Positions 12,919 to 41,673 of a stretch of 53,712 bases of DNA are shown here, one piece after another (the stretch's first letter is position 1; every line of letters begins with the position of its first letter). Position numbers and translations under genes: made by a program. Source of the stretch: Actinomycetes bacterium (GTDB lineage: Bacteria; Actinomycetota; Actinomycetes; Streptosporangiales; Streptosporangiaceae); the NCBI GenBank assembly GCA_021793235.1, contig JAJYTD010000029.1, forward strand, positions 1 through 53,712, read 5' to 3'. The notes below the pieces were generated by a model. That model had not been told where the DNA came from. It searched no databases and saw nothing but the letters and a program-made list of their open reading frames with translations.

Positions 12919-12960
12919 GAAGCGATCCCCCCACGCAACCCACGGCGAGAGGGGACCCCT

Positions 12961-25993: not shown

Positions 25994-26293
25994 CTAGTCG
26001 ACGGGGATCCCCGGGAAGCAGTCGCCGTCCTGCACGTTTCCGGTGATCGGGTCGGTCGCGCAGGGGTCGTATGCGGGCTCCGGGGGAGGGTCAGGAGGGG
26101 CGTATGGAGCGTCCATTGTCGTGGTAGCCGTGAGGAGCCCCGAGGGCGGCTCGGCGGAGGTGGGAGCGGCCGCAGGGGAGGAGCTGGGAGGCGGGGCGTC
26201 GGTGCCCTCTGTCTGCTGCGGGGCGGTCGACCCCTGCGCGCAGCCTGCGGCCAGTACCGCGAGGATCAGGAGGGACATGCACGACCGGAACAT
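25994..26293 (-). CDS. Small Pro/Thr-rich lipoprotein
   Basis: A protein of about 99 residues. It has a short basic start, a hydrophobic stretch and a lipobox LAAGC (about 14-18), then a Pro/Ser/Thr-rich spacer and a short Cys-containing end (DPCATDP, GDCFPGIP) that may form one disulfide. It should be exported, lipidated and anchored outside the membrane. Either ATG 26293 or ATG 26278 could start it and neither has a clear ribosome site. An AT-rich TACATAAT just upstream may be a -10 element, giving a nearly leaderless message. No function is recognised. Confidence 0.6.
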   Translation of the reverse strand: MFRSCMSLLILAVLAAGCAQGSTAPQQTEGTDAPPPSSSPAAAPTSAEPPSGLLTATTTMDAPYAPPDPPPEPAYDPCATDPITGNVQDGDCFPGIPVD

Positions 26294-26495
26294 ACAGCGA
26301 TTATGTAATACGGGTGTTCTGCCTGGATACGTGGGTCGGGTCCATGGGTTTCCCCGGCCTCGTGGAGCTTCGATCCGGACCAGGCCGCGCAACGATGACG
26401 GGGTTGGCCCGGGGCGCGGAGGGTAGCCGCCCGAAGAACCACACCAATTCCGGGCCGCGGAACCGCGGCGGCCGATCGGACCAAGGGAGCCGACG

Positions 26496-26711
26496 ATGTC
26501 CCAGCAGTTCGCCGAGGATGACCCGCGCCACCACACCGTGCGCGCCCGCCAGAAATTCGACGAGCTCGTGACCCATCTGCGCGAGGACGTGGGAAAGGTC
26601 GACGATGCCCAGGCCCGCGCGCTGTTCGAGACGAGCGCGGAGGTGCTGATCGGGCTGTCGACGGCTTTTTCCCACTTCGAGGAGGGTAACGAGCCGGCCT
26701 GGCGCAGGTGA
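26496..26711 (+). CDS. Small conserved hypothetical protein
   Basis: A 71-residue soluble, helical protein (RHHTVRARQKFDELVTHLRE; ALFETSAEVLIGLSTAFSHFEEG). AGGGAG lies nine bases before the ATG. It has no recognisable domain. The DDxQARALFETSAEVLxGL pattern recurs in small actinobacterial proteins of unknown role. It ends at a hairpin that faces the GpgS gene. Confidence 0.68.
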   Translation: MSQQFAEDDPRHHTVRARQKFDELVTHLREDVGKVDDAQARALFETSAEVLIGLSTAFSHFEEGNEPAWRR

Positions 26712-26714
26712 CGG

Positions 26715-26750
26715 CACCGGCTGCCCAGGGCGCGGCCCGGGCATCCGGTG
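26715..26750. terminator. Terminator hairpin between convergent genes
   Basis: CACCGGCTGCCC (26715-26726) pairs with GGGCATCCGGTG (26739-26750) with one mismatch. It lies between the stop codons of the small protein gene and gpgS. Confidence 0.55.
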
Positions 26751-26757
26751 GGCGCTG

Positions 26758-27750
26758 TCAGGACCAGCGTGGCTCACGGGATGGCACGGTTCGCTCGTGG
26801 AGTGGGGCGATCTCGGCCATGGGCGGGTGCTCGGCGGAGACGATGTCGTAGCAGTTCGGCTCGTAGTGCCGTTCGGTCCGGGCGAACTGGGTGAGCAGGG
26901 CTGAAGGCGGTGCGTCCGGGACCGTCAGCCCCCGGTGGTGCAGCCGCGTCCACGCGGTGGCGATGATCTGGGCGGACATGCGCCCCAGATCCGCCGTTGC
27001 CTGGTTGGTGTGCTCCCGCGCGCCCAAGTCCACCTGGGCCATACCGTCCAGCCCGAACCCGGCCGCCAGGTCGACCAGCAGCCCGAACTCCACGCCGTAG
27101 CCGCAGACGAACGGAACGGACTCCAGCGCATCCCTGCGGCCGGCGTACTCGCCCGCCAAGGGCTGCAGCAGGCCTGACAACTCCGGCCAGCACATGTTGA
27201 GCAGGGGGCGCGCGACCAGTTCGGTGACACGTCCCCCATCGCATGGCGAGGTAGTGGCACCGTCATCCAGCGGGCGGTCGTAGCAGCCCTTGACGTAGAA
27301 CACGGAGGGGTCGGCGAGCAGCGGCCCGACCAGACCGGTCACAAAATGCGGGCCGAAGTTGCGGATGTCGGCGTCGACGAAGGCGATGATGTCGCCCGTT
27401 GTCACCGCGAGCGATTTCCACAGGGCCTCCCCCTTACCCCCTCGCGGAGGGACCTCCGGCAGGACGGAATCCTGGTCGGCGACCGTGGCACCGGCCGCGG
27501 CGGCCACCGCGGCGGTGTTGTCGCTGGAGTAGGAGTCGATCACGACGAGCTCGTCGACCAGGGCGGTCTCCTCCATCAACGCGTGCCGGATCGCCGCGAC
27601 GATCCCGCCGACGGTGGCCTCCTCGTTCCTCGCCGGCAGCACCACACTGATACGGGTGCCGCCCTTGGCGGCCGCGGCGGTGTCCGGCGGCCACTGCTCG
27701 AAGGAGCTGGTCCGGCGCGCGAACCAGTCGGAGATGTTCGCTGGCAGCAT
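26758..27750 (-). CDS. gpgS: Glucosyl-3-phosphoglycerate synthase
   Basis: A 330-residue GT81-family retaining glycosyltransferase. It transfers glucose from an NDP-glucose donor to 3-phosphoglycerate, the first step towards glucosylglycerate (a compatible solute) and, in mycobacteria, methylglucose lipopolysaccharides. The Rossmann start SVVLPARNEEATVGG (about 35-49), the metal-binding DAD (126-128, in FVDADIRNFG), the substrate loop GGRVTEL and LAGEYAGRR are those of GpgS. ATG 27750 follows AAAGAGG. No phosphatase (gpgP) is adjacent. Confidence 0.92.
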   Translation of the reverse strand: MLPANISDWFARRTSSFEQWPPDTAAAAKGGTRISVVLPARNEEATVGGIVAAIRHALMEETALVDELVVIDSYSSDNTAAVAAAAGATVADQDSVLPEVPPRGGKGEALWKSLAVTTGDIIAFVDADIRNFGPHFVTGLVGPLLADPSVFYVKGCYDRPLDDGATTSPCDGGRVTELVARPLLNMCWPELSGLLQPLAGEYAGRRDALESVPFVCGYGVEFGLLVDLAAGFGLDGMAQVDLGAREHTNQATADLGRMSAQIIATAWTRLHHRGLTVPDAPPSALLTQFARTERHYEPNCYDIVSAEHPPMAEIAPLHERTVPSREPRWS

Positions 27751-27993
27751 GGAGTACCTCTTTTCGCGCCCCTCGGGGACTCCCCAGATTCCGGGCGCTC
27801 CGGGCGTGCACGGCCGTGGATGGACGGCGTGACGGCGCGGGTACCGCTGCATCACGACACCCGGCAACAGGTACGTCTGCCCGCAAACGGGCGTATCGAA
27901 CCGAAAAGCCGCAGATGGGCGGTGGGCCGGACGCGGTCCGTTCCCGGGTGCGAGCCGGGGGCGGCAGAAGTGCCGCGCCCCGGGACCGGCACC

Positions 27994-29259
27994 TCAGGCG
28001 GCCGGCGACTCCTTCTCGCTCTCACGGTTGGCGGTCGCCGTCGCCCCGGCGTTGAGCATCACTCCGACCATCAGTACGAGCAGGAACCCGAGAGTCCAGG
28101 TGAGCCCGATCCACTCCGCCAGCCAGCCGATGACCGCCGGACCCATCAGGAGGCCGGAGTAGGTCATCGTGGTGAACCTGGACAGTGCCACGGCCGCGTT
28201 GTGCGTGCCGGAGTCGCTCGCGCCGCTGTGTCCCACGGCGCTGAAGACCACGGGGAGCAGGACCGAGACCCCGGCGCCGACGACAGTGAACCCGGCGATG
28301 ACCGGTACCGGCGATGGGCCGAATACGACGAGCGCCATGCCGAGGATCGCTATGGCACTGCTCCAGCGGACCAGGGCCGGGGCCCCGTACCGTTCGTGCA
28401 GCCGGTCGCCGACCAGCCGCCCGGCCACCTGCAGGACCGTGAAACCGATGTAGCCCGTCGACGCCACCGCGAGCGGGGCGCCGTGGTCCTCGTGCAGGAA
28501 GACGCCGCTCCAGTTGCCGATGGCTCCCTCGCAGAGGAGAACGGTGGCGCCCATCGCTCCGAGCAGCACCACACGGCCGGTCCAGCCGGTGCGCCACCCC
28601 ACGCGCTCGCTGCCCTTATCCGCCTGCTCCGGAGCGCGGTCGGCCCCGGCGGGCAGGGTCCACCGGCCCGCCACCGCGGCCACGAGGGCCAGGAACGCAC
28701 CGGCCAGCAGGTAGTGCTGGGCGATGGACCACTCCAGCCGCATCGCGAGCCCGCCGAACGAGGAGCCGATGACGGCCCCGATGCTCCACGCCGCGTGGCA
28801 GCTGTTCATGATCGGCCGTTTCGCGGCGCGTTCCACGGCGACCGCCTGGGCGTTCATGGAGACATCGAGGAGACCGTCGATCAGGCCGAACACCACGAGG
28901 GCCAGCACCAGGTACACGACGCTGTCGGCCGCGCCGATGCCGAACATCGACAACGACAGCCCCACCGCGGTCACGCGGGCGATCCAGGCGCTGCCGACGC
29001 GTGCCGTCAGGTTCCCCGCGAGCTGCATGCTGAGCAGCGCCGAGACCGGCATGACGATGAGGAGCAGTCCCAGTTGGCCTTCAGTCAGGCCGTGCTCGAC
29101 CTTCAGTGAAGGTACGCGAACGAAGTAGCTCGCCATGATCATGCCGTTGACGAAGAAGATGGCGGCCATGGCCCAGCGGGCGGCCGTAGGCTCTCCGCGG
29201 GCGCCGGCGGAGGCGCCTGTTGGCGAGGCGGGTGTGGGGCTGGTGTCGTGTTCAGGCAC
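27994..29259 (-). CDS. MFS transporter at the end of the biosynthetic operon
   Basis: A 421-residue, 12-helix MFS protein resembling the YbjJ/FucP-like group. Visible motifs are FFVNGMIMASYFVRVPSLK in helix 1, the NAQAVAVERAAKRPIMNSCHAAWSIGAVIG region around helices 5-6, and GRLVGDRLHERYGAPALVR after helix 8. The GTG start at 29259 overlaps the dioxygenase stop by 8 bp and has AGGAG. As the last gene of the left arm it is a reasonable candidate exporter of the cluster product, although sugar or metabolite uptake is equally possible for this subfamily. Confidence 0.85.
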   Translation of the reverse strand: MPEHDTSPTPASPTGASAGARGEPTAARWAMAAIFFVNGMIMASYFVRVPSLKVEHGLTEGQLGLLLIVMPVSALLSMQLAGNLTARVGSAWIARVTAVGLSLSMFGIGAADSVVYLVLALVVFGLIDGLLDVSMNAQAVAVERAAKRPIMNSCHAAWSIGAVIGSSFGGLAMRLEWSIAQHYLLAGAFLALVAAVAGRWTLPAGADRAPEQADKGSERVGWRTGWTGRVVLLGAMGATVLLCEGAIGNWSGVFLHEDHGAPLAVASTGYIGFTVLQVAGRLVGDRLHERYGAPALVRWSSAIAILGMALVVFGPSPVPVIAGFTVVGAGVSVLLPVVFSAVGHSGASDSGTHNAAVALSRFTTMTYSGLLMGPAVIGWLAEWIGLTWTLGFLLVLMVGVMLNAGATATANRESEKESPAA

Positions 29260-30121
29260 CGTCGTCTCCTGACCATTGCTTGGTCCACCGGCTGTCCACG
29301 GCCTCACCGTCACGGACGAAGCGCACGTCAGCAGAGACCCGCATGCGCTTGGACCAGGAGTCCAGGGACGCGTGGACGACATGCGGGCTGTGCACGACCA
29401 CGTCTCCGGCCCGGTAGTCGGCCCACAGCCAGCGGAGCCCCAGTGTGCGCGCGGTCCAGCCCAGATCGTGGCTGAGGGGGCGGCTGTCGCCCGGCCGGTC
29501 CGAGCGCTCGCGTACGGTGTCGAGGCGCTCCTGGGTCACCGTGTGCGAGTTCTCCAGGTAGACCAGGCCGCCGCATTCGAAGGGGCAGTCACCGATGGGA
29601 ATCCACATGGTGACGGCGTTCTCTGTTCCTTGGTCCATGTAGGCGTAATCGGTGTGGGCACGGGAGGCGCGGTCCGATCCGGCGTAGAAGTGGCGCAGGA
29701 TACGGCGCGGCAGCAGGCGCGCGGCGCCGCCCAGCAGTGTCTCCGCGAGCCGGGTGAGCGCGGGGTCGCCGATGAACGACGTGAACTCCGCCGAGCGTAC
29801 GAACGTGTGCGCGGGGTGCCCCGCGACCCCGTGCGCCGGTAGTCGGTCGGGGATGTGGCCGGAGAAGACCCCCTCTTCCAGTGGAGTCCCGGGCATGATC
29901 ATGCCGGGTGGGAGGGTCGAGAGGTAACTCCTGCGCAGGCCGATGACCGTTGAGGGGGAAAGCACCCCGCGCAGCCGGACGACGCCCGCTTCCTGGAAGC
30001 GCCGCCGCAGCGCCCGCGGGTCGCCAAGCAGGTCCGTGCTGTCCGGTAAGGGGGCGAAGTGTCGTTCGTCGACGCTGATCGCGACACCGTTGGAGTAGGC
30101 CGTGTGCAGATCGGGAAGCAT
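29252..30121 (-). CDS. Phytanoyl-CoA dioxygenase (PhyH)-family oxygenase
   Basis: A 289-residue non-haem Fe(II)/2-oxoglutarate oxygenase. The iron triad is His156 and Asp158 (HTDYAYMDQ) with a distal His, most likely His250 in SPHVVHAS, and Arg261 (KRMRVS) is placed to hold 2-oxoglutarate. MWIPIGDCPFECGGLVYLENSH is the PhyH core strand pattern. Family members hydroxylate or desaturate small molecules in natural-product pathways. Its ATG overlaps the stop of the adenylating-enzyme gene (TGATG). Substrate unknown. Confidence 0.88.
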   Translation of the reverse strand: MLPDLHTAYSNGVAISVDERHFAPLPDSTDLLGDPRALRRRFQEAGVVRLRGVLSPSTVIGLRRSYLSTLPPGMIMPGTPLEEGVFSGHIPDRLPAHGVAGHPAHTFVRSAEFTSFIGDPALTRLAETLLGGAARLLPRRILRHFYAGSDRASRAHTDYAYMDQGTENAVTMWIPIGDCPFECGGLVYLENSHTVTQERLDTVRERSDRPGDSRPLSHDLGWTARTLGLRWLWADYRAGDVVVHSPHVVHASLDSWSKRMRVSADVRFVRDGEAVDSRWTKQWSGDDGA

Positions 30122-31230
30122 CAGTAAACCCCCGGTGTGGTCTCGTTGTCGGCTTCGGTCCGGTGGTGTCCGATCTCGGCGACGCCGTCCCAGGGGAACC
30201 AGGGGTGCGGTCCGGTCCGCACAGCGGTGTCCCGCTCCAGCAGGTTGGGCAGGAACAGGTCGTCCAGCAGCGTGGTGACGAGGACCCGCCCCCGGGTTCC
30301 GTGGGGGACCTCCCGCTCGTGGTCCGCGGGGTCGACGATTCGGATCGCGGCGAAGGGCGGCGGCAGGTGGTAGCTGACCGGTTCGCCGTGTGTCGGTGGG
30401 TCGGCCTGCAGAGCGTGCCCCATCAGCGTGTTGCCGTAGGTGTCGATCCAGCAGACCCCGGACAGGTACTCCTGTCGCAGGTACCGGGCCTCTTCCGCGG
30501 TGCACATCGTGCCCCCGGTGCAGACCGCGCGCACACCGTAGTCCGCGAGCGACTTGGGCAGGGCCGGGGCGAGGGAGAGCAGCAGTTGCGATGTGGTGAA
30601 CAGCAGGGCGGGCCCCTCGTCCTCCAGGAGCACGCGCGTCTGGTCGACCAGGTGGCCGATGTAGTCGTCGGCGGTGGAGGAGGTGCGAAGGAGGGACTTC
30701 ACCCAGCGCGGGTCGAAGTCGATGGCGCACACCGCCCCGGCCCAACTGTCGGCCAGCAGTTTGACGAAGTGCCCGTAGGCGTGCGGCCCGCTCGGCGTCA
30801 TGGCGAGCACGTCCTCGCCCGCCAGCCCGCGGGCCTCCAGCATCACGCGGTACATCGCGACGTCGTAGGAGGCGCGGGTGACGTCGACGACGCGGCACGG
30901 GGGACCCGATGTCCCGCCCGTTTCCACGACCCGGAACGGCCGGTCCGCGAAGCCGCGCGGCAGCAGGTCGCGGACGCGGGCGGCGCGCAGGTCCGCTACG
31001 TCGAACAGGCCGAACATCTGCAGTGAGGCGAAGTCGGTGATGTCGCGGAGCGGGTCGAAGGGGAGCTTCCGCTTGCGCGCCAGCCAGAACGGGGAGCCGG
31101 TCTGTTCCGAGAAGTGCCAGTGCATCATGCGCACGGTCCACTCATCGAGCGAGTAGCCCATCTCGGGCACACGCTCCCGCATGGCCTCCAGTAGCGAGGC
31201 GTCGCGCGTGGGATGGTCTGTGGTGTTCAG
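30121..31230 (-). CDS. LuxE/PaaK-like adenylating enzyme, probable CTG start
   Basis: A 369-residue ANL-superfamily protein related to LuxE acyl-protein synthetases and PaaK/F390-synthetase-like ligases, which activate a carboxylate as acyl-AMP. The P-loop-like ETGGTSGPP, the YGNTLMGH core and the late TRGRVLVTTLLDD and PWFPWDGVAEIG motifs are visible. Like LuxE it lacks the long C-terminal swivel domain. The frame opens most naturally at CTG 31230. That codon forms a CTGA overlap with the preceding luxC-like stop, like the ATGA/GTGA overlaps around it, and AAAGGAGGG lies six bases upstream. The next in-frame ATG (31182) has a ribosome site only two bases away. It probably hands its acyl group to the LuxC-like reductase next door. 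Confidence 0.8.
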   Translation of the reverse strand: MNTTDHPTRDASLLEAMRERVPEMGYSLDEWTVRMMHWHFSEQTGSPFWLARKRKLPFDPLRDITDFASLQMFGLFDVADLRAARVRDLLPRGFADRPFRVVETGGTSGPPCRVVDVTRASYDVAMYRVMLEARGLAGEDVLAMTPSGPHAYGHFVKLLADSWAGAVCAIDFDPRWVKSLLRTSSTADDYIGHLVDQTRVLLEDEGPALLFTTSQLLLSLAPALPKSLADYGVRAVCTGGTMCTAEEARYLRQEYLSGVCWIDTYGNTLMGHALQADPPTHGEPVSYHLPPPFAAIRIVDPADHEREVPHGTRGRVLVTTLLDDLFLPNLLERDTAVRTGPHPWFPWDGVAEIGHHRTEADNETTPGVY

Positions 31231-32450
31231 CGCGGCCCTCCTTTCTCGTGGGTCAGGAAAGGTGCGGTGTAGACGAAGTGCGCGCGTTCGGCCACGCTCT
31301 GGGCGCCCGCGTCGTCGGCGGTCGTGGCGACCGCGAAGGGGAAGGGCAGCTCGCACCCGATGAGGGGGTGGCCGACATCGCCGACGTGCAGGAGCGTGGG
31401 CGGGAGGAACGCTGTCTCGCCCGCGACGATGGGAAGCCGGCGCTGTGTGGCGATCCGGCCTCCCGCGGCCAGCCCGTCCTCGATGAGCGCCGCGGTCCTT
31501 CTCCCGTCGTCCACAGTGCAGTGGGCTACCGGCCAGCGGTGGTCGGGAGGGTCCAGGGAGATGCCGTCGAGCAGGTCGCCCAGGGCGCCTACCAGCGGAC
31601 CGGCGTCACCGAGGCAGACGATGGTGCACACGTTGCTGCAGAAGCGGCCGCTGTCCGCCGCGACCAGGGGCGCGATCCGGCGGGCGGTGCGGGCCGGATC
31701 GGCCAGGGCGTGTGCGTCCACGATCGCGCACGCCCGGCCGGGGCCGCGGAGGTCGAGCGAGTCGCTGCGGGCCGCCGCGGCGGCGAGGCCGTCGCCGCCG
31801 TAGACGGTCTGCCTGGTCGTCACCTGGATGAGCGCGGTGAGTCCGCCCGGATCCGTCGGGTAGTACCCGAGCCGTTCCGGCGGCCAGCCCGCGTCGATCA
31901 GCGCCCCCACCAGCCGGGCCGACGACACGGGTTCACGTCGGCTCGGTCTGATCCACACCGCCCCGCTGGTCAGGGCCGCTTCCAGAACCGACTCCAGGCA
32001 GGTGAAGGTGTTGGCGGGCAGGGAGACCAGGGCCAGCGCGGTCTCGTCGACGGCACCGTCGGCCGATGCGGCCAGCTCCTTCAGGTGTTCACGCAGCATT
32101 GCCGACCAGCGGCGGACCAGGGCACCGGGCAGCCCGGTGGTGCACAGCATCGCGGCGGAGAACTCCGCGGGACCCTGGCGGCCCCAGCCCGTGACCGTCA
32201 CGTGGCCGTCGCAGAACAGGTCGACGGCCCGGCTGAGGAGGTCGACACGGGTCTGCGGGTCCAGCGGCGGCAGCGCGGGCAGCCGGTCGCGCAGCCGCCG
32301 GGCGTCGTCGCGGATGAGGATCTTCGGTGCGAGCGAGAGGCGCGGCCCCGTGGTGCCGTACCCGGGAACGGGCTCGGTGTCGTGGGATTCGTACCACTGT
32401 CCGGCCCGCAGCAGCGGCAGGACCGCGCCCCCTGGGCTGTCGGCGCTCAT
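31227..32450 (-). CDS. LuxC-like acyl reductase (aldehyde dehydrogenase fold)
   Basis: A 407-residue protein of the LuxC/acyl-CoA reductase branch of the aldehyde dehydrogenase superfamily, which reduces an activated acyl thioester to an aldehyde with NADPH. SLPANTFTCLESVLEAAL (143-160) and VWIRPSRREP match the cofactor-binding part, and SGRFCSNVCTIV contains the likely nucleophile Cys271. The ATG at 32450 overlaps the aminotransferase-fusion stop by ATGA, and its own stop overlaps the LuxE-like start. No luciferase genes are nearby, so this is a biosynthetic reductase, not a light system. Confidence 0.8.
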   Translation of the reverse strand: MSADSPGGAVLPLLRAGQWYESHDTEPVPGYGTTGPRLSLAPKILIRDDARRLRDRLPALPPLDPQTRVDLLSRAVDLFCDGHVTVTGWGRQGPAEFSAAMLCTTGLPGALVRRWSAMLREHLKELAASADGAVDETALALVSLPANTFTCLESVLEAALTSGAVWIRPSRREPVSSARLVGALIDAGWPPERLGYYPTDPGGLTALIQVTTRQTVYGGDGLAAAAARSDSLDLRGPGRACAIVDAHALADPARTARRIAPLVAADSGRFCSNVCTIVCLGDAGPLVGALGDLLDGISLDPPDHRWPVAHCTVDDGRRTAALIEDGLAAGGRIATQRRLPIVAGETAFLPPTLLHVGDVGHPLIGCELPFPFAVATTADDAGAQSVAERAHFVYTAPFLTHEKGGPR

Positions 32451-34543
32451 GAGAGCTCGCTTTGCAGCGCGTCGACGACGAGCTCCTGTTCGCGCTCTGC
32501 CATACCGGGAAAGAGGGGAAGGCACACGTGGCGGGCGGCGAACCATTCGGCGTTGCCGAACACGCGCCCGGGGAAGGCGTCCGCGAAGAAGGGCTGCTGG
32601 TTGAGGAGGGTGTCGTAGACCTCCCCGGCCAGCGCCACTCCCCGTTTGCGCAGCCGCTGCTTCAGCGCGGACCGGTCGACGCCGTCGGGCAGGTAGGCGA
32701 CGTACTTGTAGTAGTTCCCGCGGACTCCGGGCGGAACGGTGTAGGGGGTCAGCGCGGGAACGTCGGCGAGGCGGGCGTCGTACCCGGCGGCGAGCCGCCG
32801 GCGCTCCTCCAGGACGGCATCGAGCCGGGGCAGGTGGGTCGCTCCGACAGCGGCGTGCAGTTCGCTCATGCGCCAGTTGCTGCCCAGGAACGCGTGCACG
32901 TTCTCCTCGAACGAGCGCTTGCCGTGGTCGCGCAGGCGCCGCACAAGGTCCAGGTCGTCCGCGTCCGCGGTGACGAGCCCGCCCTCGCCGCTGGTGATCA
33001 CCTTGGTGGGGTAGAGGGAGAACGCGGCGAGTCGGCCGAAGGCGCCCGCGTTCGTGCCGTCGAGAGCCGACCCCAGGGCGTGCGCGGCGTCTTCGACGAC
33101 GGGTATGCCGCGGGCCGCGCATTCGGCGAGGACCTCGGTGAGCGCGGGTGAGACCACGCCCGCGATGTGGACGAGGACCACAGCGGCCACATCGTCGTGC
33201 TCTGCCAGGGCGGCGCGCAGCGCACCGGGATCCATGCCGAGGCCGTCCAGTTCCATGTCGACGGCATCGATCCGGGCGCCGGCGCGGATGGCGCCGGCCG
33301 CGGTGGCGAAGAAGGTGTTCACCGGGACGAGCACGGTTCGGCCGGCCACACCGATGACGCGGAGCGCGATCTCCAGCGCGGCCGATCCGGAACTCACCGC
33401 GGCGCTGCCGCGCCCGATCCGCTGCCGGGCCAGCTCTTCCAGGCGGGCGCCGACCGGCCCCAAGGTCAGCGTGCCGGAGGCCAGCGCGTTGTCGACCAGG
33501 TCGGTGATCTCCTCCCGGGCCTCGGCGTCGAATCCCACGCGCGCCGCCGGCACCTCCGCGCGAACCCGCACAGGGGCCGCCAGGGAGCGGGAGAAGAAGG
33601 CGGCGGCCTGGTCGATCGCGGTGCCGTGGCCCATGTCCACCGGCAGCACCTCGACCGCGGTACCGGCCCCCACTGCGGAGTAGCCGTCCTGAACCCGGTT
33701 TCCCGCGGCCGCGGCGTCGGCGGGATCGAGGAGGTGGTCGTTTCGCCCGTACTGGATCTGCAGCGGGGCGGGGGCGAGAGCGGAGTAGAGGTCGGGCAGG
33801 TCCGCGTAGCGGAGGATCGACGGGAGGGCCGCGAACTGGTCCCATGTCGCGAGCCGCCCGAACATGGTCGGGTAGCCGCCGAGATGGCTCGCCGCGCAGA
33901 CGGGGACCGGTTCTTCGTAGAGCAGCGCGGCGTGCAGAGCGACGGCGGCCCCGAGGCTGTGCCCGAACAGGCCGATCCGCTCCGGCTCCACGTCGGGGCG
34001 TCCGGCCAGCCAGGTGAGGGCGGCTACGGCGGTATCGGCCAGCAGAGCGAGCACGCTGTCGCCGTGCAACCGCAACTCGCCGTCCAGCACGATCGCGGGG
34101 TCGCGGCCGTCCGGCCGCGCGGCGCTGTCGCCGCGGGCCAGGCCGTGGTCCAGGGTGAGGGTGAGGTATCCCGCGCGGGCCAGGTGGACGGCCACGTCCC
34201 GGTCGGGGTGGTCCGGGGCGGACAGGCCGGTGACCGCCTCCAGTCGGGCGTTGCGTCCGGGGCAGACCAGTACGGCCGGCCACGGGCCGGCCGTGTCCGG
34301 CGAGAGCGCCACGGCGCGGATGCCTTCGCGTCGGGGGTGGTCGAAGGTGTAGTAGCGACGGCGCAGTCCCTGGTGTTCCTCCTCGCTGCTCTCCCGTGCC
34401 CGGAGCGCGGCGCGGTGGACCGGCGCCAGGCGGGCGACGGCCGCGCGCGTCCGTCGGTTGCGCGCGGCCTGCTCGGCTTCCCGCCCGTCCGCGCGCGGCT
34501 CGGGGGAGCGGCGGGACAGGCGGGCACCCGGATCGATCCGCAC
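32447..34543 (-). CDS. Alpha/beta-hydrolase fused to DegT-family aminotransferase
   Basis: A 698-residue two-enzyme fusion. Residues about 60-325 are an alpha/beta hydrolase of the dienelactone hydrolase/acetyl-esterase kind with a complete triad: Ser196 in GHSLG, Asp269 in GRNDHLLD, His306 in MGHGT. Residues about 335-698 are a DegT/DnrJ/EryC1/StrS PLP aminotransferase with Asp485 (VVEDAAHALG) and the Schiff-base Lys514 (YPTKVITSGEGG). Both halves look catalytically intact. Starting at GTG 34543 (AAAGGGG upstream) leaves 10 bp to the radical SAM gene. DegT enzymes usually aminate keto-sugars or cyclitols, some aminate aldehydes. Here the neighbouring reductase pair could supply the aldehyde, and the hydrolase could remove a protecting acyl group or release the product. 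Confidence 0.88.
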   Translation of the reverse strand: MRIDPGARLSRRSPEPRADGREAEQAARNRRTRAAVARLAPVHRAALRARESSEEEHQGLRRRYYTFDHPRREGIRAVALSPDTAGPWPAVLVCPGRNARLEAVTGLSAPDHPDRDVAVHLARAGYLTLTLDHGLARGDSAARPDGRDPAIVLDGELRLHGDSVLALLADTAVAALTWLAGRPDVEPERIGLFGHSLGAAVALHAALLYEEPVPVCAASHLGGYPTMFGRLATWDQFAALPSILRYADLPDLYSALAPAPLQIQYGRNDHLLDPADAAAAGNRVQDGYSAVGAGTAVEVLPVDMGHGTAIDQAAAFFSRSLAAPVRVRAEVPAARVGFDAEAREEITDLVDNALASGTLTLGPVGARLEELARQRIGRGSAAVSSGSAALEIALRVIGVAGRTVLVPVNTFFATAAGAIRAGARIDAVDMELDGLGMDPGALRAALAEHDDVAAVVLVHIAGVVSPALTEVLAECAARGIPVVEDAAHALGSALDGTNAGAFGRLAAFSLYPTKVITSGEGGLVTADADDLDLVRRLRDHGKRSFEENVHAFLGSNWRMSELHAAVGATHLPRLDAVLEERRRLAAGYDARLADVPALTPYTVPPGVRGNYYKYVAYLPDGVDRSALKQRLRKRGVALAGEVYDTLLNQQPFFADAFPGRVFGNAEWFAARHVCLPLFPGMAEREQELVVDALQSELS

Positions 34544-34553: not shown

Positions 34554-35762
34554 TCAGATGAAGTCGGCGTGCAGGGTCTTGGGGATTTCCAGCCGGTAGT
34601 CGTTCAGTGCCTGGTCGAGTTTGACCCGCCCGTTCTTCAGCCACTCCAGCAGCTCGTTCTGGGGCCGGTAGAAGCAGGACTTGCACAGGTCGGTGCGTAG
34701 CGGGTTGGAGTTCTCCCATTCATCCCGCGGCCCGCTCTCGAGGACGTTCAGGTAGCCGTCCTCCACGACATTGCCGATCCGGTACCGGCTGTTGAGGTGG
34801 ACCTGCGGGCACGGGTAGAGGTTGCCGTCCGCTCCGACAGCGGTCACAAACCGGCTGTAATGGCAGTGGTCGAAATCGCCTTCGACCGAGGTGACCTGGT
34901 CCATCGGTCCCCGGTCGAGCTTGGGAACAGATACCTCGAACTCTTCTGTCCCGAGTTGGGCGACCTCGTCGAGAGCGGCGGAGATCTCCGCCATCTCGTT
35001 TTCGATGGTCTCGTGGCCCATGGCGCTGTAGAACTCCGGCTCGAAGCGGATGTAATGGGCGCCGGAGTCGCGTGCCACGCGGGCGGCCTCGCGGATCTCC
35101 CGGAAGTTCTGCTGGGTGATGACGTAGTTGAAGCCGATGCGGAACTCGGGGTCGACCGCTGCCGCGCGCAGCTGTCCGACCGAGTCCATGAAGGAGGCGA
35201 ACGTGTGCTCGCGGTCGCGGGTGATGTCTTCGAACGTCTCCGCGGTACCGGCGTTGAGGCCCATCCGGACCCAGGTGTGCGTCCGTGCCACGCACTCCGC
35301 GAGCGCCTCGCGCCGCAGGCGGGACCCGTTGGTGATCAGGCCGATGCGCAGGCCGGCGGCGTGGGCCGCGTAGGCGATCTGCGTATAGCCGGGATGGATG
35401 GTGCATTCCCCGCTGCCGCAGAATGTGACCGCGCGGCCGCCCGACTCCGCGAACTCCTCCATCAGGGCGACGCTCTTGTCGGTCGAAAGGGCGTCCTTGA
35501 ACGAGAAGAGGTCGTAGAACTGCTCCTCATTGGGGGAGTGGAAGTTGCAGAAATTGCAGCGCATGTTGCATGCGCCCATGATTCCGATGCGCATGTGGAT
35601 CGGGCGGAACTTCTCGCCGTTGACGAACTTGCGTAGCAGGTCGTCGTGGGCGAGGACTTTATCCGGTGAGTGCGCCTCATCAAGAGATACGTCGACCAGG
35701 CCATCCCGGTTGCTGGGTCGGGCTGTCGTGTAGTCCACTCCTGTGCTGTCCTGGCCGGGCAT
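34554..35762 (-). CDS. Radical SAM enzyme with SPASM-like Cys-rich C-terminus
   Basis: A 402-residue radical S-adenosylmethionine enzyme. The cluster motif is Cys65, Cys69 and Cys72 (GACNMRCNFC). GSGECTIHPGY and LRIGLITNGSRL fit the partial TIM barrel. The C-terminal part has further Cys residues (DHCHYSRF, LYPCPQVHL, LCKSCFYRPQ), the spacing style of SPASM/twitch auxiliary clusters. Such enzymes oxidise alcohols on aminocyclitols (BtrN), mature peptides or make new C-C bonds. No precursor peptide was found, so a small-molecule substrate is favoured. ATG 35762 follows GGGGAG. It is the first gene of the left arm. Confidence 0.88.
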   Translation of the reverse strand: MPGQDSTGVDYTTARPSNRDGLVDVSLDEAHSPDKVLAHDDLLRKFVNGEKFRPIHMRIGIMGACNMRCNFCNFHSPNEEQFYDLFSFKDALSTDKSVALMEEFAESGGRAVTFCGSGECTIHPGYTQIAYAAHAAGLRIGLITNGSRLRREALAECVARTHTWVRMGLNAGTAETFEDITRDREHTFASFMDSVGQLRAAAVDPEFRIGFNYVITQQNFREIREAARVARDSGAHYIRFEPEFYSAMGHETIENEMAEISAALDEVAQLGTEEFEVSVPKLDRGPMDQVTSVEGDFDHCHYSRFVTAVGADGNLYPCPQVHLNSRYRIGNVVEDGYLNVLESGPRDEWENSNPLRTDLCKSCFYRPQNELLEWLKNGRVKLDQALNDYRLEIPKTLHADFI

Positions 35763-35932
35763 GAGATCTCCCCTAGATGTCTCCGTGGTGACGTGCAGGT
35801 ATGTCGGAATGGAATCGATCTGCTGCGGCGAGTGAAGCGAGTTCGTCGAAAGGAGAAGAGGTATAGAGAATTGGATCGGCCATGAGAATTTTGTGCGGAA
35901 CGATCTCTGAGTGCGGATATTCAGGATCACTT

Positions 35933-35946
35933 TGGAAGCGCTCCCA
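35933..35946. promoter_or_regulatory. CebR/CelR-type LacI-family operator
   Basis: TGGAAGCGCTCCCA differs at one position from TGGGAGCGCTCCCA, the 14-bp palindrome bound by the cellobiose-responsive LacI-family repressors CebR (Streptomyces) and CelR (Thermobifida). It lies in the 242-bp divergent promoter region, about 170 bp before the radical SAM gene and 59-98 bp before the glycosyltransferase gene, so it could control both arms. Confidence 0.65.
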
Positions 35947-36004
35947 TGGGGAACCTAGTTGTCGCTCTAATGCCTGTCAATCCCTCTTGTCAGGAGCTTT
36001 CCGG

Positions 36005-37264
36005 ATGTGTATCGTCCAATCATCGAAACGGGATGGGGGCCTGATGACCAGGAATTCCGTCGTGCCGGAAGATCGGTTTGTCGGCACGCCGCTCGGCGTT
36101 CGACTCGCCCAGTACGCGGTTCTCGCCAATGACCCTTCGGTCCCCGAGATCGCCGCCGACTGGTGGAAGATCTGCGAACCGCACTACCGCTCCGTGGTGG
36201 AGCCGCTCGCCGCCGCCACCGATGGGGACCGGTCGGGCGAGGACCTCGCGCGGCTGGCCGCGGCACCGTCGGACGAGTCCAGGGAACGGGCGCTCGCCGA
36301 CTCCCTCGGCGACTTCCTGGAACGATTCCCCGACACCGCCTCCCGGATGGCCGGCCTGGTGGCGGCGGCAGACCCCCACCTGCTCATCGACTACCGCCGG
36401 GGCGCACGGCCCGATCCGCCGGCGGCCGAGGTCGACCTCGCGACCGTGCTCGCCTGGCGACCGCCTCCCGCGGAGCAGTCCGCAGCGGTGCGCACGGTCG
36501 TGGTGATCCCCTTCCGCGACCGGACCAATGGCGCGCGCACCCGCAACCTGCTCGCCTGCCTGGCATCGTTGCGCGCCCAGCGCCGCAGGGTCGACGACGT
36601 GACCGTCACCGTCGTGGAATCCGACGACGAGCCCCGCTGGGAGGAGGCCATCCGCCCCTGGGTCGACCACTATGTCTTCGCGCGGCACTCCGGCCACTTC
36701 AACAAGTCATGGGCGGTCAACGTGGGGGTGCGCCAGACCCCGGGAACGCCCGAGCTGATCTGCATGCTCGACGCGGACGTCCTGGTGGACGAACTGTTCC
36801 TGGAGCGCAACCTGGCCCGCGCCGAGCGCGGCGGCCCCTCCTCTTTCCTGCCGTACCAGGACATGTTCTGCCTCGACGCCGCCTCCAGTCACGCCGCGAT
36901 CAGGCGGCGCTGTGAGCAAGGGGCCCCGGACGTCCCGCTGGACAGCTTCCGCGCCCTCATCCTGCGCGAACCCCCGGGCGCCAACCTGTGGGTGCGCGCC
37001 GATGTCTTCCACCGGATCGGCGGGTTCGACGAGCGCTACACGGGCTGGGGCGGGGAGGACGACGACATGGTCGCGCGGCTGGTCCGCGCCGGAGGGTTCG
37101 CACGCTTCGCCGATCCGCTCCTGCACCTGTCCCACCCGCGCCCGCAGATGACGCTGGACGGAGCACCGTTCAACGCCCATATCGAACCAGGAAGCTGGGA
37201 CCCCGGCCACGGCTACGGGCAGCTTCACGGACCCGCGGCCGCCGCGGCCGCTGGTCGGCCATGA
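36005..37264 (+). CDS. GT27/GT2-type glycosyltransferase (GT-A fold)
   Basis: A glycosyltransferase of about 419 residues (406 if the ATG at 36044 is used). Numbered from the second ATG, residues 151-160 open the GT-A domain (TVVVIPFRDR), DAD at 243-245 is the metal/nucleotide-sugar site, and GGFDERYTGWGGEDDDM (326-342) is the galactosyltransferase-7C/GalNAc-transferase-like acceptor motif. A 130-residue helical N-terminal region has no recognisable domain. The start at 36005 is preferred because AGGAG lies eight bases upstream; 36044 has only a G-run. It leads the right arm and overlaps the next gene by ATGA. Donor and acceptor are unknown. Confidence 0.85.
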   Translation: MCIVQSSKRDGGLMTRNSVVPEDRFVGTPLGVRLAQYAVLANDPSVPEIAADWWKICEPHYRSVVEPLAAATDGDRSGEDLARLAAAPSDESRERALADSLGDFLERFPDTASRMAGLVAAADPHLLIDYRRGARPDPPAAEVDLATVLAWRPPPAEQSAAVRTVVVIPFRDRTNGARTRNLLACLASLRAQRRRVDDVTVTVVESDDEPRWEEAIRPWVDHYVFARHSGHFNKSWAVNVGVRQTPGTPELICMLDADVLVDELFLERNLARAERGGPSSFLPYQDMFCLDAASSHAAIRRRCEQGAPDVPLDSFRALILREPPGANLWVRADVFHRIGGFDERYTGWGGEDDDMVARLVRAGGFARFADPLLHLSHPRPQMTLDGAPFNAHIEPGSWDPGHGYGQLHGPAAAAAAGRP

Positions 37265-39096
37265 GCCCGGCCCTGTCCGCCTACGCCGCGCGCACCTCCG
37301 CGGCTCCGGGCGAGACGCTGGTGTTCCGACTGGAGGGTGCCGAACACGGGCGCGCGCACGTCCGCGACGCGGTGACCGACGCGCCCATGGCCGAGTACGA
37401 CGTCGCAGCCCCCGACTGGCGACTGCGCATCCCCGAGGACTGGCCGAGTTCGCTTTACGCGGCCACCTTCACACCGGGCGGCCAGGAGGTCTACTTCGCC
37501 CTCCGCGTCGCACGTCCCGGAGCGCACAGCACCATCCTGGTCTCGGTTCCTTTTCTCACCTGGCAGGCCTACAACCGGGCAGGAGTGCCGGGAGAAGGGC
37601 TCTACCCGGCGGAAGGGCCGCAGCGCGCCACGCGAGTGAGCTTCGACCGGCCCGGCGGAGGACCGGCCGGCTACTGGGAGGACCGCTTCTACCGCTGGCT
37701 GGCCGAATGCGGCTACCGGGTCGAGTTCTGCTCCAATCTGGACCTGCACGGCGACGCGGAACTGCTGGCGCACTACCGCCTGCTGGTCTGCGCGGGCCAT
37801 GACGAGTACTGGACGCTGGAGATGCGCGACGCCGTCGAGGGGTTCGTCGCCTCGGGAGGGAACGCCGCCTTCTTCTGCGGCAACACCTGCTGGTGGCAGG
37901 TGCGCCTGGAGGACAGCGGGCGCACTCTGGTCTGCTATCGCGACGCGGTCAGCGACCCGCTGGCCGCGGCCGATCCCGCCCGCGCCACGGTCGAATGGTC
38001 CAGCGCTCCGGTGAACCGGCCGGAGAACACGCTCACCGGTGTCAGCTTCAAAAACGGTGCCGGCTGCTGGGAGAACATGGCGGCGATGGAGAAGGAGGCG
38101 TTCACCGTCTCCTTCGCCGAGCACTGGGTCTATGACGGCACCGGCCTGTACAGCGGAGAGGTGTTCGGCACCGGCGCGGTCGGCTACGAAACCGACGCCG
38201 CCGACTTCCGCGAGGTCGACGGGGTTCCCGTGGTGACCGGGCAGGACGGCACCAGCGCGGACTTCGTCGTCCTCGCAACGGCCGACCTCCGGCACTGGCG
38301 AAAGTACGGCAAAGGCGGGCACGCCACGATGGGGATCCTGCGCGCGGGCGCGGGAACGGTGTTCAACGCCGCCACGGTCGGCTGGTCGAACGCGCTCGAC
38401 GACCCGGTCATCGGGCGTATCACCGCCAACGTACTCGACCGCCTCGGCGGCGACCCGCCTGAATGGGAGACGATGGGCGCCGCCCCCCGTGCCGCGGTGT
38501 CGCTGGCCGCCTGCGAACACCACCTGTTCGCGGTCTCCGATGACGGCGCGCTGTCCGCCCGGCCCAACCGCACCCAGAACCTGCCCTGGCACCAGGTCGA
38601 CACGGCCCCCGGACTGCGGGCGCTGGCGGCGCCGGCGGCCTCGGTGCCCGGTTGCCCGGTGGTCCTGTACGGCCTGTTCGCCGACGGGCGGGTGCGCTGC
38701 CGCGAACCCGTCACCCACCCGGCCGACTGGGCCGACCTCTACCCCGCGCCCCCCGGCGCCATCGCCCTGGAACCGGTCGACACGGCCATGTACGTCCTGA
38801 CCGTGGACGGCGGCCTATGGCGCCGTGCGCTGAACGGCGACCACGACGCGGAGTGGACCTATGTCGGTCCCGGGCGCGACCTCATCGACCTATCGGGCAT
38901 GAACGGCCGCCTGTTCGCGCTCTCCAGCGACAACGACCTGCTCACCCGGGTTCCGGAGGAAGACGACTGGGTCAGGCTGTGCCCCACCCCCAAGATCGCC
39001 TCCCTGACCGCAGCGGCGGGTCGGATCATCGGCGCCACCGGCGGGGGAGCACTGCTCTGGCAAGACGTGACGACCATGAACACCGCTGAGAGGTAG
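37261..39096 (+). CDS. N,N-dimethylformamidase large-subunit-like protein with tectonin-like tail
   Basis: A 611-residue protein. An N-terminal beta-sandwich (about 1-95) is followed by a domain like the C-terminal half of the N,N-dimethylformamidase beta subunit (about 95-405). Its hallmark is GHDEYWTLEMRDAVEGF followed by NAAFFCGNTCWWQVRLE. The tail (about 410-600) carries repeated Trp-ending blades (ALSARPNRTQNLPWHQVD; LWRRALNGDHDAEWTYV; LLTRVPEEDDWVRL) resembling tectonin/beta-propeller lectin repeats. There is no signal peptide. The iron-dependent formamidase activity of the family is not proven for such homologues. Carbohydrate binding by the tail and amide hydrolysis by the core are inferences. 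It overlaps the genes around it in the right arm. Confidence 0.75.
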   Translation: MSPALSAYAARTSAAPGETLVFRLEGAEHGRAHVRDAVTDAPMAEYDVAAPDWRLRIPEDWPSSLYAATFTPGGQEVYFALRVARPGAHSTILVSVPFLTWQAYNRAGVPGEGLYPAEGPQRATRVSFDRPGGGPAGYWEDRFYRWLAECGYRVEFCSNLDLHGDAELLAHYRLLVCAGHDEYWTLEMRDAVEGFVASGGNAAFFCGNTCWWQVRLEDSGRTLVCYRDAVSDPLAAADPARATVEWSSAPVNRPENTLTGVSFKNGAGCWENMAAMEKEAFTVSFAEHWVYDGTGLYSGEVFGTGAVGYETDAADFREVDGVPVVTGQDGTSADFVVLATADLRHWRKYGKGGHATMGILRAGAGTVFNAATVGWSNALDDPVIGRITANVLDRLGGDPPEWETMGAAPRAAVSLAACEHHLFAVSDDGALSARPNRTQNLPWHQVDTAPGLRALAAPAASVPGCPVVLYGLFADGRVRCREPVTHPADWADLYPAPPGAIALEPVDTAMYVLTVDGGLWRRALNGDHDAEWTYVGPGRDLIDLSGMNGRLFALSSDNDLLTRVPEEDDWVRLCPTPKIASLTAAAGRIIGATGGGALLWQDVTTMNTAER

Positions 39097-39102: not shown

Positions 39103-40107
39103 GTGCGCCGGTTCGAACTCGTTGGCCGCCACGAAACCGTCCTGAGGACGGACGTTCCGGTACCGGCCCCCGGCCCCGGGGAAGTGCTGGTCCGCGTTGG
39201 AGCATGCACCGTGTGCAACCGCAGCGACCTGGCCTACTTCCACTACCTGGGGCTGCGCGACCACTGCGCCGTCGGCTGCTTCGGGCACGAGATCGCGGGA
39301 ACCGTCGCGGAGGTCGGCGAAGGGGTCACCCGGACCGCACCCGGACGCCGGGTGTTCATCCGCACCCCACTCACCTCCGGGTTCGCCGAATTCGCCACCG
39401 CCCGCGAGGTCGCAGTGGGAGCCCTTCCCGACCACATCCCCTTCGAGCAGGGCGCCATCCTGCAACTCCTCCCCCTTGCCGTGCACGCGACACGTGGGGT
39501 ACGGCTCGGCGACCGGGTCGCGATCCTCGGGCAGGGGCCGGTCGGACTGATGGCCCTGCAGGCCGCCCGGCTGCGCGGTGCCGCCGAGATCGCCGTCGCC
39601 GACCTGGACCCGTGGCGCCTGGAACGCTCAGCACTGCTGGGGGCGGACCGCTGCGTCGCCGCTGACGGCACTCGTGCGTCACTGGAAGCGCTCGGCGGTG
39701 GCTTCGACGTAGCGGTCGAGGCGGTGGGTGTGCCGGGAACCGCCAACGCCTGTGTGGATCTGGTCCGCCAGAACGGGCTGGTGGTCCTCCTCGGCACCCA
39801 CCATGTCGACACCCACGTGACCGTTGACCTGGTGGCCTGGGAGAAGAAAGGGCTGCGGGTGCACACTGCGGCCGAACCGACAGACGCGGCACGGGCTGCG
39901 GCCATGCGCACCGCCGAGCGGCTCGCCGCCACGGGCCGGGTCCGCCTGGAGGAGCTGCTCACCCACGTCCACCCCCTGGAGGAGCTGCCCGCCGCCATGG
40001 AACGGCTCTCACAGAACCCGACACTGTTCCCGGCCGACGCGCCGGGACCGTTCACCGCGCCGCCGGGCGAAACACTGAAGGTCGCGATGCGCCCGGCTCC
40101 GTCGTGA
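39103..40107 (+). CDS. Zinc-type alcohol dehydrogenase (MDR superfamily)
   Basis: A 334-residue medium-chain dehydrogenase. The catalytic-zinc region has Cys38 (TVCNRSD) and GHEIAGTV, and the NAD(P) fold has GQGPVGLMALQAA. The four-Cys structural-zinc loop of classical alcohol dehydrogenases is missing. The style resembles sorbitol, threonine and 2-deoxy-scyllo-inosamine dehydrogenases that act on sugar-like secondary alcohols. The GTG start at 39103 follows GAGAGG, six bases after the previous stop, and the end overlaps the MocA gene by GTGA. Possible role: oxidise a hydroxyl to the ketone that another enzyme then modifies. Confidence 0.88.
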   Translation: MRRFELVGRHETVLRTDVPVPAPGPGEVLVRVGACTVCNRSDLAYFHYLGLRDHCAVGCFGHEIAGTVAEVGEGVTRTAPGRRVFIRTPLTSGFAEFATAREVAVGALPDHIPFEQGAILQLLPLAVHATRGVRLGDRVAILGQGPVGLMALQAARLRGAAEIAVADLDPWRLERSALLGADRCVAADGTRASLEALGGGFDVAVEAVGVPGTANACVDLVRQNGLVVLLGTHHVDTHVTVDLVAWEKKGLRVHTAAEPTDAARAAAMRTAERLAATGRVRLEELLTHVHPLEELPAAMERLSQNPTLFPADAPGPFTAPPGETLKVAMRPAPS

Positions 40108-41063
40108 GGTGGGGAATCGCGGGATACGGGGACATCGTCCGACGGCGGGCCCTGCCAGCGCTGCTGTCCCTCTCGGAGACGGTGGCCTGTGTGTGGGGCC
40201 GCGACTTCGACCGTGCTCGGTCACTGTGCGACGAGTACGGCATCGCCTCCGCGACGTCGGACTTCACGGCCCTGCTGAACTCGGTCGACGCCGTCTACGT
40301 CGCCACTCCGGTCGTCGCGCACGCGCCCCTGGCCGCAGCAGCGCTGCGCGCCGGCCGCCATGTCCTGATCGAAAAGCCGGTGCGGGGTGCCCTGGCCCCG
40401 GCCGCGACACTCCCCGCTGCGGGGGACCTCCGGGCCGGCGTCGCCTACTACCGCCGACTGGCTCCCGCGTTCCTGCGGCTACGCGAGCTTCTGGGGCGGC
40501 GCAGAGTCGACCGGGTGGCCGTGTCCTTTCGCGGCGCCTTCGATCCCGCCCCCGACGATCCGAAGTACTGGCGCACCGACCCGGCCCTGGCCGGCGGCGG
40601 CGTACTGGCGGACGCGGGCAGCCACCGGATCGACCTGCTCTGCCGGCTCCTGGGGGAACCCGGATCCGTCAGCGCGACCACGGCGCGGCACTTCCCCCAA
40701 GGCGCGGAACGCAGCGCGCGAATGCGCCTGGAATGGCCGTCCGGGACGGTCGCCGACCTCGAATTCGCCTGGGACGACACTCCGGCACGCGACCACCTGT
40801 CGTTGAGCTTCGACGGCGGACACCTGACACTGGACCCGCTGGACTCCGGGCACATCACCGGTACCGTCGACGCGGCGCCGGTGGACACCTGCCTGCCGCC
40901 GAACGAGAACCCCCACCTCCCGCTCATGGCCGATTTCGCCGACAGCGTCCGGAACATGACCGAGCCGGTCTGCCCGGTCGAGGACGCGCTGGCCGTCGAC
41001 CGGCTGATCGCGGACGCTTACACCGCAGCGTCAACACAACCCGTCAGGAGACCCAATGAATGA
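40104..41063 (+). CDS. Gfo/Idh/MocA-family oxidoreductase
   Basis: A 319-residue NAD(P)-dependent sugar/cyclitol dehydrogenase. The nucleotide fold opens with GIAGYGDI (4-11), the EKP signature follows near residue 93, and GGGVLADAGSHRIDLL carries the catalytic Asp/His region. Members oxidise or reduce hydroxyls of glucose, inositol or UDP-sugars. It starts at a GTG overlapping the alcohol dehydrogenase stop and ends 8 bp inside the DUF1349 gene. Together with the preceding dehydrogenase it could perform an oxidation-reduction pair, for example an epimerisation. Confidence 0.9.
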   Translation: MRWGIAGYGDIVRRRALPALLSLSETVACVWGRDFDRARSLCDEYGIASATSDFTALLNSVDAVYVATPVVAHAPLAAAALRAGRHVLIEKPVRGALAPAATLPAAGDLRAGVAYYRRLAPAFLRLRELLGRRRVDRVAVSFRGAFDPAPDDPKYWRTDPALAGGGVLADAGSHRIDLLCRLLGEPGSVSATTARHFPQGAERSARMRLEWPSGTVADLEFAWDDTPARDHLSLSFDGGHLTLDPLDSGHITGTVDAAPVDTCLPPNENPHLPLMADFADSVRNMTEPVCPVEDALAVDRLIADAYTAASTQPVRRPNE

Positions 41064-41655
41064 CCCGGTCCAGATCCCCGCTTTCCCCACGCCGCTGCGC
41101 TGGCTCAACCACCCCGAACATTGGGAACTCCAGGACAGCAGCACACTCGTGGTGCGAGCGGGCGCCGGCACCGACCTGTTCACCGACCCCGGCGGCGACG
41201 CCCAGTTCGCCAACGCCCCCGCCCTGGTCGGATCGGTCGACGGGGACTTCATGCTGAGCGCCCGGGTCCGCCTCGACCTCACCTCGACCTACGACGCCGC
41301 GGTGCTGCTGCTGTACACCGGCGAGGACACATGGGCGAAACTGTGCCTGGAGCTCTCCCCCCAGGGCAAGCCGACGATCGTGTCGGTGGTGAACCGGGGG
41401 GTGTCCGACGACTGCAACTCCTTCCCGGTCGAGAGCGACGACGTCCGGCTGCGGATCTCCCGCCTCGGTTCCGCCTTCGCCTTCCACGTGCGAACCGATG
41501 GCCACTTCTGGCACCTCATCCGCTACTTCGCCCTCGACGGTGCGCCTGAGGTGGGGTTCTGCGCCCAGAGCCCGCTCGGTGACGGCCGCACCGTCCGGTT
41601 CGAGGACATCGAATACTCCGCCAAGACCCTCACCGACCCGCGCAGCGGCGTCTGA
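41056..41655 (+). CDS. DUF1349 concanavalin-like protein
   Basis: A 199-residue beta-jelly-roll protein of the DUF1349 (concanavalin-like/'regulation of enolase 1') family. WELQDSSTLVVRAGAGTDLF (about 23-42), DAAVLLLYTGEDTWAKLCLE and GFCAQSP are family strands. No signal peptide is present. The fold is shared with sugar-binding lectin domains, but members are mostly uncharacterised. The ATG follows AGGAG and lies inside the end of the MocA gene, so it is the last gene of the right-arm operon, which a hairpin closes. Confidence 0.85.
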   Translation: MNDPVQIPAFPTPLRWLNHPEHWELQDSSTLVVRAGAGTDLFTDPGGDAQFANAPALVGSVDGDFMLSARVRLDLTSTYDAAVLLLYTGEDTWAKLCLELSPQGKPTIVSVVNRGVSDDCNSFPVESDDVRLRISRLGSAFAFHVRTDGHFWHLIRYFALDGAPEVGFCAQSPLGDGRTVRFEDIEYSAKTLTDPRSGV

Positions 41656-41673
41656 CACAGCACCGCCCCGCCC

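Follow-up and report, generated by a model that had tools for sequence, protein, structure and literature searches.

We describe here a gene in which a complete alpha/beta-hydrolase is joined to a complete aminotransferase of the DegT/DnrJ/EryC1/StrS family, found in a 53,712-nucleotide stretch of DNA from a Streptosporangiaceae actinomycete (assembly GCA_021793235.1, contig JAJYTD010000029.1; hereafter the window, by which the whole of this stretch is meant). The encoded protein, of 698 residues, carries the catalytic residues of both halves, as do its full-length counterparts in 11 other genomes, all of these genes adjoin a radical SAM/SPASM gene, and the fused aminotransferase domains group as one clade. 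We put at about 50% the probability that the fusion works as a bifunctional enzyme within an actinobacterial biosynthetic cluster, so far uncharacterised, whose product would resemble an amino sugar or an aminocyclitol; in this reading the two catalytic activities and the order in which they act are inferred, as are the substrate and the product.

Architecture and recurrence of the fused gene

The fused gene occupies positions 32447–34543 on the minus strand (34543→32447), where the frame is uninterrupted over 698 codons from a GTG start. A ribosome-binding-like AAAGGGG ends 4 bases 5' of this GTG, which lies 10 bases downstream of the stop of the radical SAM gene, and the stop of the fused gene shares an ATGA overlap with the ATG of a LuxC-like gene. 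An earlier note on this DNA had given the same coordinates and length and named no strand; they are correct for the minus strand. On the plus strand, frame 1 of the interval contains two stops, and that reading was rejected.

The protein consists of an N-terminal alpha/beta-hydrolase (residues ~40–322, with Ser196, Asp269 and His306), a linker (residues ~323–330) and a C-terminal DegT/DnrJ/EryC1/StrS aminotransferase (residues 331–697, with Asp485 and Lys514). The Pfam model DegT_DnrJ_EryC1 (PF01041) matches residues 343–694 (E 1.3e-77, 261.9 bits versus a cut-off of 19.8) over model positions 4–360 of 360, and the dienelactone-hydrolase-type model DLH (PF01738) matches residues 75–209 marginally (E 4.7e-5, 23.5 bits versus a cut-off of 21); among other copies, L074 (23.6 bits) also lies above the DLH cut-off, and L065 (12.7) and L075 (17.5) lie below it. 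A structure model of the hydrolase alone (mean predicted local distance difference test score, pLDDT, 73.7) spans a whole alpha/beta-hydrolase, in which Ser196 sits between a strand (185–195) and a helix (197–208), forming the nucleophile elbow, Asp269 follows a strand at 261–266 and His306 a strand at 297–302; the predicted fold thus has Ser, Asp and His in the canonical order. The DegT half opens with a VPAAR motif, and the same kind of motif starts its standalone relatives. As the hydrolase is whole in the model and the DegT half starts at this motif, the gene reads as two complete proteins joined via a short linker; the segment corresponding to window residues 320 to 331 measures 11–23 residues across the 12 copies. 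The fusion is the sole strong DegT match in the window genome, the four others being 6.7e-6 or weaker.

Full-length copies number 12, counting the window, with lengths of 689–732 residues and no stops. Six other genomes encode the protein at 56–70% identity, and five further copies are found in the genus of one genome, G665. Among 198 relatives searched with the whole protein, G055 alone gave a further full-length match, at 70% identity, and a search with the hydrolase half in 345 genomes of the order returned four strong matches (E < 1e-100), in the window's genome (G000), G055, G409 and G287, all within open frames of at least 695 residues, the remaining matches (3.8e-11 at best) resembling general alpha/beta-hydrolases. 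Judged by shared sequence, G055 has its contig in common with Nocardiopsis trehalosi NBRC 14201 and G287 with Nonomuraea glycinis; the fusion is also present in Dactylosporangium aurantiacum NRRL B-8018. Seven genomes passed 1e-15 in a class-wide sample of 394, four with the fusion (G000, G055, G616, G665) and three with standalone hydrolases, and one of 396 passed in a phylum-wide sample, this being the window's own genome. Matches occur in 736 of 72,556 plasmid records; coverage of the query stays under 80% in every case, and all of the 15 matches listed lie within the DegT half.

Searches were also made with a radical SAM profile. Nine matches were obtained in 295 genomes of the genus of G665: six of these genomes have the complete fusion, in one the contig ends just past the hydrolase start, and two (G1281 and G1105) show no fusion within the 20 kb retrieved around the radical SAM gene. 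In the latter two the radical SAM genes (L095, 10815–12095, and L096, 11347–12585) are degenerate, the CxxxCxxC motif lacking its first cysteine in one and all three in the other, and the loci give the impression of a cluster in decay. In 355 genomes sampled from the class, four matches reached 1e-30, three of them with the fusion (G000, G055, G616); the fourth, from another genus of the family (locus L100 of G064), is a radical SAM relative with a weaker match (E 7.6e-31).

The earlier note had raised the concern that a frameshift or an assembly error might have joined two genes. Since independent genomes carry the fusion, with the same open architecture in 12 assemblies from several families, an artefact of this kind, or one of read-through, is excluded with a negligible residual probability, and the genome sequences confirm the fusion as genuine and beyond chance.

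The same note had numbered the catalytic residues and had claimed one chain with both active sites intact. The numbering is right, and Ser196, Asp269, His306, Asp485 and Lys514 are identical in the alignment of all 12 fused proteins, as are the GHS(L/M)G nucleophile elbow and a PTK motif. The ratio of nonsynonymous to synonymous substitution rates (dN/dS, by the Nei–Gojobori method) was taken from the 14 most similar of the 66 pairs, those with DegT identity over 0.72, and ranges from 0.22 to 0.44 in the hydrolase and from 0.20 to 0.34 in the DegT half; with the strong GC bias the absolute values are rough, and both, at less than 0.45, lie well below 1. Both halves thus look to be under purifying selection, and the claim of a single chain with two intact sites is well supported by these data. 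One might still propose that the hydrolase is catalytically idle, a scaffold or a substrate-binding domain for the aminotransferase, and its lower conservation (68 of 295 columns invariant, versus 121 of 386 in the DegT half) would fit; however, an unbroken Ser, Asp and His and a retained nucleophile elbow in 12 of 12 proteins would be unexpected in an idle domain, and we regard this proposal as very unlikely.

A tree was built from the DegT domains of the 12 fusions and of 17 standalone proteins, an eighteenth standalone sequence being left out as a short match. A branch with support of 100/99 separates the fused domains from the standalone ones, with one change of label, which is consistent with, without proving, a single fusion event.

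Relatives of the two halves

The motifs around Lys514 and Asp485 align with SFHAIK and EDAAHA of ArnB (1mdo), so that the lysine that binds pyridoxal 5'-phosphate (PLP) and the aspartate facing its N1 are in place, and the domain is predicted to be a PLP-dependent aminotransferase of the sugar type. Its solved relatives are DegT-family enzymes, mostly sugar aminotransferases, including ArnB, perosamine synthase and NtdA. ArnB, PseC, DesI and NtdA resemble the whole C-terminal half, sharing the PLP lysine and aspartate, and the Pfam score is far over the cut-off; however, the solved relatives match only this half of the fusion. None of the NCBIfam models listed for the fusion reaches its cut-off (PseC, 189.9 of 423.5 bits). 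Standalone relatives of the DegT half were collected from nine loci (L027–L035, 42–49% identity), and a gene for an NAD-dependent epimerase/dehydratase directly adjoins the standalone DegT gene in all five loci scanned (L027, L028, L029, L033, L034).

As to the hydrolase, comparison of its model with solved structures gives 3nuz (Z 26.1), 3g8y (Z 26.0), the methylesterase BT1017 (Z 22.9) and glucuronoyl esterases of carbohydrate esterase family 15 (CE15; about 22), and the thioesterase DcsB follows at Z 18.2. A profile built from seven fused and three standalone hydrolases, the latter of which may bias it toward their own families, finds 3nuz (2.1e-15), 3g8y, acetyl xylan esterases of family CE7 and CE15 glucuronoyl esterases. 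By both approaches the hydrolase resembles carbohydrate esterases more closely than chain-releasing thioesterases. It has the fold and the Ser-Asp-His order in common with 3nuz/3g8y, CE7, CE15 and BT1017; it differs from them in being joined to an aminotransferase, and identity is about 14–22%. Three standalone hydrolase relatives (L077, L078 and L079, 25–31% identity) come from three genomes of one genus, and a GFO/IDH-like gene lies within about 7 kb in L077 and L078.

The shared neighbourhood and a possible pathway

In the window, the fusion is the second gene of a minus-strand operon in the order radical SAM/SPASM, fusion, LuxC-like, EhpF-like, PhyH, MFS. The radical SAM/SPASM gene (34554..35930; Pfam Radical_SAM 4.3e-19, SPASM 1.2e-6) probably starts near 35762, where its relatives begin; it is 70–79% identical in six other fusion clusters, and its best match among solved structures is at 1.5e-4. 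The next gene after the fusion (31227..32450, minus) encodes a reductase that fails to reach the Pfam thresholds of LuxC (PF05893; 10.6, 17.3, 20.4 and 19.2 bits in four copies versus 21) and of Aldedh, and so appears to be a divergent LuxC-like member of the aldehyde dehydrogenase superfamily. It is followed by a gene for a predicted adenylate-forming enzyme (30121..31230, minus), whose profile matches EhpF (3hgu) at E 1.2e-51 over its full length (positions 29–370 of 370); a comparison of the profile of this ligase with that of the reductase revealed no relationship. A PhyH-family oxygenase of the 2-oxoglutarate/Fe type (29252..30121, minus; PhyH 3.1e-11 on a longer containing reading frame) and an MFS transporter (27994..29382, minus; MFS_1 3.3e-26; 56% identical in G409 and N. 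glycinis) complete the operon. Divergent from it, on the plus strand, are genes for a glycosyltransferase of the family-2/Glyco_transf_7C type (35882..37264), a protein with a C-terminal domain like that of N,N-dimethylformamidase beta (DMFA2_C, 36988..39096; PF20254, 7.5e-74), a zinc-dependent medium-chain dehydrogenase (39103..40107; ADH_zinc_N 7.4e-18), a GFO/IDH/MocA oxidoreductase (40104..41063) and a DUF1349 protein (41056..41655; PF07081, 1.5e-46). The two oxidoreductases match models of threonine, inosose, inositol and levoglucosan dehydrogenases, all far under the cut-off.

Within the stretches fetched around the 12 fusions, some of which end at contig ends, and leaving out matches shorter than 60 residues, the radical SAM/SPASM gene adjoins the fusion in 12 of 12. 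The reductase is present in all 12 neighbourhoods (in G616 as a 114-residue match), and the EhpF-like and PhyH genes in 11 each. The zinc-dependent dehydrogenase, 66–80% identical in the eight other clusters where it was found, occurs in nine, as does the GFO/IDH oxidoreductase; the glycosyltransferase occurs in five and the DMFA2_C protein in four (besides the window, in G409, N. glycinis and D. aurantiacum). The DUF1349 gene was seen, besides the window, in G409 and N. glycinis only. Gene order is not fixed: in D. aurantiacum the genes for the reductase and the ligase are on the opposite strand, about 7 kb away from the fusion, and an epimerase/dehydratase-family gene follows PhyH.

The pathway that we favor would run as follows. 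The dehydrogenases, or the LuxC-like reductase acting with the ligase as an adenylation–reduction pair, would generate a carbonyl on a skeleton resembling a sugar or a cyclitol, and the DegT half would add an amino group to this carbonyl. The hydrolase half, a putative Ser-His-Asp esterase, would strip an ester (O-acyl or uronate-type) from the same substrate, its immediate precursor or the product, the fusion keeping the two steps together and equimolar. The radical SAM enzyme probably acts on the substrate or the product of the fusion. The earlier note had proposed coupled transamination and ester/amide cleavage or release: this is plausible, and its view of a single bifunctional chain is retained, but a role in release fits less well than an esterase step on a sugar-like substrate, given the resemblance to carbohydrate esterases and the sugar-type oxidoreductases in the cluster.

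A number of observations weigh against the amino-sugar or aminocyclitol reading. One is the varying content of the clusters outlined above, as in G616, where the ligase, PhyH and both dehydrogenase genes were not seen in the fetched stretch and the reductase match is short. The window sequence alone matches a solved carbohydrate esterase at just 5.8e-5. In the copies scored, the cut-off of 21 bits is not reached for AXE1 (PF05448, CE7; L065 12.1 and L075 10.5) or for Abhydrolase_7 (PF12715; L065 20.5, L074 20.0, L075 13.4), the window protein being absent at E 0.001 for both. In CE15 the nucleophilic serine is followed by arginine; in the fused proteins the residue after Ser196 is leucine or methionine in 12 of 12, which places the hydrolase outside CE15. 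The same alpha/beta-hydrolase fold also serves thioesterases and lactonases. Finally, the full-length model has a pLDDT of 50, probably because only four sequences were given in its alignment, and is too poor to show whether the two active sites face each other.

The resemblance to CE7 deacetylases, together with the MFS transporter in the same operon, could also be taken to mean that the hydrolase is mainly a tailoring or self-protection deacylase, removing an O- or N-acyl group late in the pathway, with the fusion serving co-expression only. However, no acyltransferase was recognised among the scanned genes of the cluster (small reading frames lay outside the scan), and a protection step needs no fusion to an aminotransferase kept in 12 genomes, making this explanation distinctly improbable.

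A further alternative is a LuxD-like role, in which the hydrolase, as an acyl transferase or thioesterase, would pass an acid to the EhpF-like and LuxC-like enzymes and the DegT half would aminate the resulting aldehyde, converting a carboxyl into an aminomethyl group. LuxD, LuxE and LuxC act likewise on fatty acids, and in luxCDE, as in the fusion cluster, a hydrolase, an adenylating enzyme and a LuxC-like reductase are encoded together; in the fusion cluster, unlike luxCDE, the hydrolase is joined to an aminotransferase. The fusion, LuxC-like and EhpF-like genes are consecutive in the window, linked by ATGA and CTGA overlaps, and both partner genes accompany the fusion in nearly all of the clusters. 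In a phenazine operon of Proteus mirabilis, ehpF stands next to ehpG, annotated as an aldehyde dehydrogenase family protein (PMC11278526). Against such a role stand the distant, opposite-strand reductase and ligase of D. aurantiacum, the closer similarity of the hydrolase to carbohydrate esterases than to thioesterases such as DcsB, the sugar genes that accompany the DegT relatives, and the reductase score under the LuxC cut-off. We consider the LuxD-like role unlikely.

A related and more specific possibility is that the fusion forms the core of a template-free module that turns a carboxyl into an aminomethyl group, and whose products would be aminated carbohydrates of a new natural-product class. 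The hydrolase would free a sugar or cyclitol carboxylate from its ester, the EhpF-like enzyme would adenylate it, the LuxC-like enzyme would reduce it, the DegT half would aminate the aldehyde and the radical SAM enzyme would act on the same skeleton. We view both the module and this sequence of steps as improbable.

Known systems and flanking genes

Each of the two domain types is familiar by itself; what is new to the sources searched is their pairing, the grouping into one clade and the cluster. The statement of the earlier note that no characterised enzyme has this pairing is not contradicted: no characterised hydrolase-DegT fusion was found among the open-licence PMC papers searched, as judged by the titles and starts of abstracts listed, a description elsewhere being possible, and none of the solved PDB chains among the best 60 of 61 matches is long enough for both halves. 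The preservation of the pairing across genera and families beside the same radical SAM gene marks a biosynthetic logic absent from the papers searched. The fusion, in combination with the radical SAM, EhpF-like and LuxC-like genes, offers a genome-mining handle for the cluster family, and it presents a defined protein in which the coupling of an esterase to a PLP enzyme through their substrates can be studied directly.

Parts of the cluster do have counterparts in known pathways. One example is griseoluteic acid biosynthesis with EhpF and EhpG: the neighboring ligase is a clear EhpF relative, and its gene adjoins one of the aldehyde dehydrogenase type, which matches the annotation of ehpF and ehpG, but the scan of the genes around the fusion recognised none for the phenazine core, and a different substrate is expected. 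Another example is the kanosamine pathway with NtdA and NtdC, in which, as here, a DegT aminotransferase is combined with a GFO/IDH oxidoreductase, the fusion cluster differing in the added radical SAM, EhpF-like, LuxC-like and hydrolase steps. As to the product, Nocardiopsis trehalosi is the source of 3-trehalosamine; an origin of this compound in the fusion cluster was considered, and it is kept as a lead only.

The EhpF-like gene may start with CTG, the alternative being an ATG further on, at codon 17 in the window. In four loci of the window's family (the window, N. trehalosi, G409 and N. glycinis), a ribosome-binding sequence of the AAGGAG type precedes a CTG AAC; the loci read for this start include the window (31230, minus), L026 (2006), L059 and L061. 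In L059, no ATG, GTG or TTG lies between the CTG and an in-frame stop located five codons upstream of it. In more distant EhpF-like loci an ATG or GTG is found near the start in six of seven, L091 being ambiguous.

The cluster is flanked on the left by a glycosyltransferase family 2 gene and a second MFS gene (24293–27867, minus) and on the right by sulfotransferase and glycosyltransferase group 1 genes (41498–44411, plus). These flanking genes were not found, at 60 residues or more, in the fetched stretches of the other fusion loci and are thus possibly strain-specific. Further to the left, at 12820–19791 on the plus strand, the window encodes a respiratory nitrate reductase, with genes for a molybdopterin oxidoreductase and for the delta and gamma subunits.

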